From the IMG/VR virus record IMGVR_UViG_3300030382_003232, positions 1 through 20,398 of that record: a DNA stretch of 20,398 nt. One strand, 5' to 3'. The notes below the pieces were generated by a model. The model saw nothing but the letters and a program-made list of their open reading frames with translations, made no database searches and was not told the DNA's origin. Source of the DNA: a virus. The translations under genes were made by a program, and so were the position numbers. Position 1 is the first letter of the stretch; each line of letters opens with the position of its first letter. This document shows, one piece after another, positions 19,387-20,398 of this stretch.

Positions 19387-19726
19387 GCTTTCCTCCAATT
19401 TTATGTAACTTTTTGTATTTATACAACCTTTTGAGCTTCTCCATAATCTCTATCTCTTTCCTCTGAGATTCTACTATCCCAACCAGAAGTTCGTGTAATT
19501 CCTGTGGAAGTTCTTCGTTCTCGTCTACCAGAGATTTCACCATCATTATAGCCCCTTTATGGTGAGGAATCATCTTAGTTAAAAAAGATAACTCATCCTT
19601 AACCATATGTTGGCTCATGTTCATATCAAATTCAGCCTTATCCTCAGCCGTTCTTTGGTAAAACTTGGGGGCTATTCTTTTGAAGAGCCTCTTTAGCTTA
19701 CCTGTTTGTATTTTTCCTCTTTTCAA
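19376..19726 (-). CDS. DUF305-type protein, 116 aa (start uncertain)
   Basis: Residues about 35-98 carry the DUF305 signature: MNMSQHMVKDELSFLTKMIP, then HHKGAIMMVKSL, then IVESQRKEIEIMEKLKRL. The motif MIPHH.GAI.M with a later Q..EI..M is diagnostic. Members of the family are small four-helix proteins rich in Met and His, some linked to copper binding; H40, M41, M52, H55, H56, M61, M62 and M95 are present here. Unlike many bacterial members there is no signal peptide, so the product should be cytoplasmic or virion-borne. The N-terminal ~34 residues are basic. The longest frame starts at TTG 19726 without a good SD; ATG at residue 35 (19624) is an alternative. It overlaps the upstream 63-aa ORF. 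Confidence 0.75.
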   Translation of the reverse strand: MKRGKIQTGKLKRLFKRIAPKFYQRTAEDKAEFDMNMSQHMVKDELSFLTKMIPHHKGAIMMVKSLVDENEELPQELHELLVGIVESQRKEIEIMEKLKRLYKYKKLHKIGGKRDY

Positions 19727-19889
19727 ACCAATCTTTTACATCAGTAAATAATTTAAGACGGTTCTCCCGGCTCCTGAATCCATTTATCTCAGCTAATGAC
19801 TTGTAAAGGTTTTGGTAATCTAACTTCCCACTAGAAGTTAGATATTTCTCGTCCCAATTACGAGTCGCAGACTTATAAAAAGTAGTTAT
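19698..19889 (-). CDS. 63-aa ORF with apparent ATA start
   Basis: Reading from 19889, the frame is TTFYKSATRNWDEKYLTSSG, then KLDYQNLYKSLAEINGFRSR, then LKLFTDVKDWFEKRKNTNR, ending in TAA. The composition is protein-like, helical and charged. The frame contains no ATG, GTG or TTG at all, and a TAA closes it two codons upstream of the ATA at 19889-19887. That ATA has an excellent SD (AGAGGT, 19895-19900) with a five-base spacer, exactly where a start codon should be. It may use AUA initiation, or carry an ATG-to-ATA change or sequencing error. It overlaps the DUF305 frame by 29 bases in the +1 frame. No family is recognised. Confidence 0.5.
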   Translation of the reverse strand: MTTFYKSATRNWDEKYLTSSGKLDYQNLYKSLAEINGFRSRENRLKLFTDVKDWFEKRKNTNR

Positions 19890-19894
19890 GTCTT

Positions 19895-19900
19895 ACCTCT
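19895..19900 (-). promoter_or_regulatory. Shine-Dalgarno of first late gene (AGAGGT)
   Basis: AGAGGT lies five bases before an ATA codon at 19889 that opens a 63-codon frame. It decides the likely start of that gene because no standard start codon exists in the frame. Confidence 0.5.
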
Positions 19901-20100
19901 ATAATTAATTAACTAAAAAAACACACCACAAGTTTACAATCTTTTTATTAGACATACCATCTTTATTATTATCGCTGTAAAAAAAATAATAGCTACACTT
20001 AGCTATGAGTGGCCACTCCTATTGAACTCCTCTTTAAAGTTTGGGTAAGCAATCCTAAATCCCAAAAATTATTCTAGAGTGGGTTTACCTGATATACATT
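19901..20100. other. AT-rich divergent intergenic region
   Basis: No supported gene is seen. GC is about 22% in 19,901-19,980. It carries T/A runs and lies directly upstream of the leftward late genes, so a late promoter would be expected here. I could not find a -10/-35 pair good enough to call. It contains the hexamer TAGCTA twice (19990-19995 and 20000-20005), separated by CACT, and a 12-bp palindrome at 20007-20018. A 16-codon frame (19905-19955) has a weak SD and is not called. Confidence 0.5.
20007..20018. promoter_or_regulatory. 12-bp perfect palindrome, operator-like
   Basis: GAGTGGCCACTC is a perfect palindrome between the divergent genes, next to a doubled TAGCTA. A dimeric regulator site is plausible but unproven; short palindromes also occur by chance. 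Confidence 0.3.
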
Positions 20101-20300
20101 GCATGGTACCCATGCGTTTTTCGCCCCGCGGGGGTCGAAGCCCGTTGAATTGGCATTCAACCAATTCGTTCCTCATGGGCTGGTTGACTACCAATGAACT
20201 CAACGCTCTTCGCCCCAGCTCTCGGGGCTCATCCGCTCACTCGTACCTCGCTCGCTCTCCCCCTCTCACCTCTGCGAGCAGATGTGATACATCATATCTG
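20101..20300 (+). ncRNA. GC-rich multi-hairpin element, possible structured RNA
   Basis: About 61% GC in 20,121-20,280, against 22% in nearby DNA, and no convincing ORF. Hairpins visible in order are: 20101-20115 (GCATGG/CCATGC, loop TAC); 20120-20139 (TTCGCCCC/GGGG-T-CGAA, one bulge); 20144-20161 (GTTGAAT/ATTCAAC), which competes with 20147-20167 (GAATTGG/CCAATTC); 20183-20204 (GTTGA/TCAAC); 20212-20228 (GCCCC/GGGGC); 20250-20279 (GCTCGC/GCGAGC, pyrimidine-rich 18-base loop); and 20279-20300. It precedes a rightward gene by 64 bases. It could be a leader RNA, a small RNA, a replication origin or a packaging site. The strand is assumed from the downstream gene; the stems also form on the other strand. 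Confidence 0.45.
20279..20300. promoter_or_regulatory. 22-bp near-palindrome upstream of rightward gene
   Basis: A dyad of nine paired positions (one G-T) encloses a four-base centre; arms begin CAGATGTGA and end TCATATCTG. It lies 64 bases before the rightward start codon. It may be a repressor operator or a final hairpin of the structured element. Confidence 0.35.
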
Positions 20301-20350
20301 TAAGCAAGGGAAGTACACAGCATCAAGCAAGTGTGAACCTATCTTAGAAT

Positions 20351-20356
20351 AAGGAG
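20351..20356 (+). promoter_or_regulatory. Shine-Dalgarno of rightward gene (AAGGAG)
   Basis: AAGGAG is eight bases before ATG 20365, a standard spacing. It supports the start of the gene cut by the right edge. Confidence 0.75.
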
Positions 20357-20364
20357 TGTTGATA

Positions 20365-20398
20365 ATGTCTGGTATTAAGAAAGTAGTTGTTACCTTAA
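20365..20398 (+). CDS. Start of rightward gene, 5' end only
   Basis: ATG 20365 has AAGGAG eight bases upstream and reads MSGIKKVVVTL before the window ends. Eleven residues are too few to assign a family. It is the only supported plus-strand gene and is divergent from the late cluster, so it may open a different (early or middle) transcription unit. Confidence 0.6.
   Translation, partial: MSGIKKVVVTL

Follow-up and report, generated by a model that had tools for sequence, protein, structure and literature searches.

A conserved promoter-like block and a folded leader ahead of the early operon in uncultured phages whose long relatives encode a predicted giant two-barrel RNA polymerase

Many phages use the host RNA polymerase early in infection. 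In phage N4, a T7-like virion RNA polymerase reads the early promoters, near which hairpins occur, and in phage HK022 the put RNAs fold just downstream of an early promoter. The closest known systems to the locus described here are gp66 of the crAss-like phage phi14:2 and gp96 and gp64 of the Thermus phage P23-45. A role in early gene transcription has been reported for the virion polymerase of phi14:2 (PMC7886860), and the virion polymerases of both phages are reported to be carried in the particle (PMC7886860, PMC10770324). P23-45 has a virion (gp96) and a non-virion (gp64) polymerase with promoter motifs of their own, and such polymerases are reported to share little sequence past the catalytic motif (PMC10770324). 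The P23-45 promoter motif is conserved among relatives with the virion polymerase and missing in those without it; 14 start sites with an AT-rich motif are found in that phage, whereas the genomes described below hold one strong block each, followed by a structured leader.

The window analysed here is the whole stretch of 20,398 nt that forms positions 1 to 20,398 of the IMG/VR virus record IMGVR_UViG_3300030382_003232. Near its right end lies an island with a GC content of 57% (20101-20300), against 24% at 19880-20000 and 39.5% in the whole window; the contrast had been described in a sequence-only reading of this DNA, whose figures of 61% and 22% are corrected by these values. That reading had also placed the island between divergent phage operons, and this was found to be the case. 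To the left, leftward genes for an endolysin, the terminase large subunit (TerL), a portal and a major head protein form the late operon. To the right, the early operon begins with a gene starting at 20365, which is cut by a scaffold gap (10 N at 20399-20408, the nearest gap, just beyond the window) and is whole (117 aa) in the relative L085. In the long relative G024, the early operon encodes a primase-helicase, a Sak4-like annealing protein (L155:1982-2842) and a Mu Gam-like end-protection protein (L154:18910-19461), and the early genes of G014 include a ThiF-family gene (L151:17620-18336). The first late gene of the window (19698-19889, minus strand) has an apparent ATA start a few nt after AGAGGT, and both this ATA start and the 63-aa product (ITTFYKSATRNW...) are conserved in L003 and L007. 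A perfect 12-bp palindrome between the operons, GAGTGGCCACTC (20007-20018), is kept in L003 to L005 and degraded in L007, and is possibly an operator. The features of the plus strand are as follows.

20064-20097, plus strand: promoter-like block AAAAATTATTC-TAGAGTGGGTTTACCT-GATATAC, 34 bp, gapless in relatives.
20098-20111, plus strand: putative RNA 5' end ATTGCATG, running into the conserved GTACCC (20106-20111), placed by the start of the closing helix in relatives.
20101-20115, plus strand: 5'-terminal hairpin GCATGG-TAC-CCATGC, then T5 (20117-20121), from the fold and a compensatory change in relatives.
20123-20228, plus strand: rod-like RNA stem with the conserved GTTGA (20144-20148), from the minimum-energy fold and comparison with L089.
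20259-20264, plus strand: CCCCCT, the window's form of the CCCCTK motif that follows the 3' strand of the closing helix in most relatives.
20280-20299, plus strand: second hairpin AGATGTGATACATCATATCT, from the fold, mostly kept in L003 and L004.
20351-20398, plus strand: AAGGAG ribosome binding site and ATG (20365) of the first early gene, from the sequence and L085.

The island is neither a coding fragment nor an assembly join. As had been claimed, no protein frame accounts for it: only overlapping frames of 74 and 52 aa cross it, and relatives have indels there. The region 19710-20398 has matches at 82-83% in three independent contigs (L003, L004 and L005). Relatives were collected as 80 viral loci via the terminase protein, with others added from scans with the block pattern, and the island recurred at the same place in ca. 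72 non-redundant uncultured viral sequences; the island alignment comprised 59 distinct islands. A single scan of genome contigs, made with a view to the host, yielded no relative.

The most conserved part of this locus is the block at 20064-20097. The sequence-only reading found the stems and missed the block, which lies just to the left of the 200 bases that it described; the block and the folding leader were left unseparated as two parts of the island. Across the 59 aligned relatives the block was gapless, with up to 2.2 bits of information per column and the consensus AAAAAT N5 TAGAATG N G N GTACG N GATATAC, and GTACCC was conserved ca. 8 nt past GATATAC. A matrix scan of five long genomes and the window found one strong site in each, the best scoring 35-66 bits and the next-best at most 3.1. 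A second, antisense copy was weak and confined to G017 (2.9, with a shuffled maximum of 0.7), where it lies inside the long leader on the plus strand of L146 (5890-5939), facing the opposite way; it is not general. The block is oriented into the early (replication) operon, the order and orientation of the element and the first early gene are constant among relatives, and the block is followed in most members, after 90-280 nt, by an ATG that has a Shine-Dalgarno-like site. Since the block lies in a divergent region, is single-copy, has rigid spacing and stands upstream of the first early gene, it is promoter-like, and judged from the sequence it is most likely the promoter of the early operon.

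A candidate enzyme for such a promoter is encoded by the long relatives. Unlike phi14:2, these relatives (contigs of ca. 40-55 kb) have an ORF of 2,900-3,700 aa. It carries GGADLDGD[KE] in each of the five genomes that were read, as do 26 of 27 homologues, and its ADLDGD agrees with the DxDxD catalytic motif of two-barrel polymerases. An AlphaFold2 model of a 941-residue core, built with 22 sequences, had a pLDDT of 84 and a pTM of 0.82. In Foldseek, the best match of this model was the phi14:2 virion RNA polymerase 6VR4 (E 1.1e-8), followed by QDE-1; VIA-align, in a comparison covering the modelled core only, gave Z 13.8 for QDE-1 and Z 12.2 over 643 residues for 6VR4. The predicted core matches both over nearly the whole 941 residues as two barrels in one chain, and the giant protein is thus predicted to be a single-chain two-barrel RNA polymerase. 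The single chain, the two-barrel fold and the DxDxD-type motif are shared with phi14:2 gp66, a match at the level of predicted structure; no sequence kinship with gp66 was detected in the PDB profile search or in the phi14:2 genome. Searched with the polymerase profile and with the block, the genomes of phi14:2 and P23-45 gave no sequence match. Likewise, the giant ORF had no match among PDB sequences in the profile search, its G024 copy had none in PHROGs and its G014 copy none in Pfam, and a 900-aa stretch of it had none in 50,697 phage records. The T7-like polymerase family PF00940 was found in 0 of 25 records, and none of 14 control genomes matched it either. G007 and G011 encode a second giant ORF of ca. 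2,900-3,100 aa without ADLDGD (L148:4821-13616; 3,121 aa in G011).

The giant polymerase and the block occur together. The polymerase was present in 23 of the 24 long contigs with TerL and/or the element, and the block pattern, for which as many as 3 mismatches were tolerated, was found in 22 of these 24; of 30 polymerase contigs, 21 had it. A few of these pattern matches appeared by eye to be due to chance, and a reversed control pattern hit 3 and 4 contigs. In G024 and G014 the polymerase gene lies in the late operon, and the block faces the opposite way, into the early operon. A late-operon product that serves the early operon must be carried by the virion, and from this gene order we infer that the giant polymerase is probably packaged, in which it would resemble the giant virion protein with polymerase of P23-45. 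The polymerase gene is absent from the window's own 20.7-kb record, which ends short of it; two scans for longer, polymerase-bearing contigs of the window's own clade found none, and the TerL tree places the window among polymerase-bearing lineages. With moderate confidence, the block is probably read by this giant polymerase. The link rests on association, and this leaves room for an early promoter at which the host polymerase starts, directed by an activator or by a sigma factor of host or phage origin, the giant enzyme acting elsewhere. Against this, the block contained no convincing -35/-10 pair: no sigma-70 elements at 16-18 bp were found in it, two weak matches were found in 19700-20398 where 1.5 were expected, and the invariant elements in the 59-island alignment have a spacing unlike that of sigma-70. 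Moreover, if the giant enzyme is a late product carried in the virion, the single copy of the block is the only strong site for it in the five genomes scanned. We consider reading by the host polymerase unlikely.

The second part of the island is the folded leader. Folding of both strands with shuffled controls, proposed as a check in the sequence-only reading, showed that 20060-20320 folds far better than its dinucleotide shuffles on the plus strand (-91.3 kcal/mol, z -5.4, 0 of 200 as good) and on the minus strand (z -4.1, 1 of 200 as good). The two mutually exclusive stems reported earlier, GTTGAATTGGCATTCAAC (20144-20161) and GAATTGGCATTCAACCAATTC (20147-20167), do exist; the minimum-energy fold uses neither as such and forms a separate hairpin at 20101-20115 and then a rod at 20123-20228, into which most stems are merged. 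TTCGCCCC, which had been said to recur nearly at 20209, is exact in both copies (20120 and 20209). Rfam 15 had no match in the window at gathering thresholds and none in 19900-20398 at E up to 10.

The leader of many relatives has a closing helix, formed between the 10 nt that follow GATATAC and a segment lying 45-140 nt downstream, in which the sequence is unconserved and the pairing is retained. When members were compared with mismatched, dissimilar partners, 27 of 70 reached a score expected in 7.2 (permutation p < 1e-4), and a repeat of the test with dissimilar partners gave z 5.3, with z -1.3 for a downstream control; an earlier test, in which similar partners were uncontrolled, was weak (10 of 72 at rank < 0.05). 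RNAalifold recovered the helix independently, with both sides changed at four pairs, and its wobble pairs (15 G.U vs 4 A.C) were as sense RNA would show. For the inner hairpin of the leader, p was 0.003. In the window's clade a short 5' hairpin takes the place of the closing helix; it is kept via a compensatory change from T-A to C-G in L089, which is also visible in L007. Over 36 consensus pairs including this hairpin, the window and L089 differed by four compensatory changes and two changes from G-C to G-U, and no pair was broken. The covarying pairs that had been suggested as a check are thus present in relatives, with compensatory changes keeping the base pairing. Mutual-information covariation on a MAFFT alignment was rejected, its signal being dominated by relatedness, and a pseudoknot between GGGG and the 3' CCCC motif, suggested by eye, was dropped. 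Since the closing helix starts 0-3 nt past GATATAC in relatives, transcription probably starts right after GATATAC.

Here the block precedes the large stems and the predicted enzyme is two-barrel, whereas the small hairpins of N4 lie within a promoter read by a T7-like enzyme. The earlier interpretation of the island as regulatory RNA held in part, as regards structured, competing stems ahead of a gene. Our guess is that the leader is a folded RNA shielding, processing or regulating the early message, and it is a candidate for a new RNA family. In roughly one relative in three, the leader folds weakly.

Stems other than the closing helix showed no sense-strand bias, and in the strongest inverted repeats of the leader A.C exceeded G.U (63 vs 32), as if the antisense strand folds; part of the structure may therefore function at the DNA level or in the opposite strand. 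These stems, together with the adjoining replication operon and the single copy per genome, would also suit a block and inverted repeats that are mainly a DNA element, namely a replication origin or the site of an initiator protein, with transcription secondary. However, the closing helix begins directly after GATATAC and prefers G.U over A.C, which is RNA-like, the arrangement of the element relative to the first early gene does not vary, and no iterons were found; such a DNA element appears improbable as the main explanation. Even less probable is an antitermination leader for the host polymerase like the put RNAs of HK022, which the hairpins directly downstream of an early promoter-like block and the conserved GTTGA and GTACCC recall, but leader length here varies widely, from ca. 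90 to 600 nt, the apical sequence is unconserved and relatives have a phage polymerase available. The origin or terminase recognition site offered in the sequence-only reading gained no positive support, the element being 2.2 kb from the terminase gene and internal in most long contigs, near the end in several.

We therefore favour, with fair but far from full confidence, an early-operon promoter for a giant virion-carried polymerase, followed by a folded leader. The block at 20064-20097 would be recognised as a promoter by the phage's giant polymerase and not by the host sigma-70 polymerase, the enzyme being made from the late operon and carried in the virion so as to act early. Transcription would start at or just past GATATAC and run rightwards, and the nascent RNA would fold from its first nucleotides, its 5' end being locked in a stem, which takes the form of a local hairpin in the window's clade and, in many relatives, of a long-range helix. 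Ahead of the first early gene's ribosome binding site, the RNA would form an extended rod that can switch in part. The folded 5' end would most likely protect or process the message, or act back on the polymerase.

Few lineages of polymerase-carrying phages are known, and their promoters are poorly mapped. A more far-reaching view, which we hold to be speculative and unlikely in its entirety, is that these phages are an unrecognised uncultured group in which giant virion polymerases of the two-barrel type go with a single compact promoter. The transcript of this promoter would take on a conserved fold, beginning with the very first nucleotide, and would thereby regulate the polymerase, for example as a cis-acting RNA for promoter escape or antitermination. 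With one promoter candidate per genome, ca. 72 natural variants and a predicted core of 941 residues, these phages provide a resource that makes promoter recognition by two-barrel virion polymerases testable in vitro.
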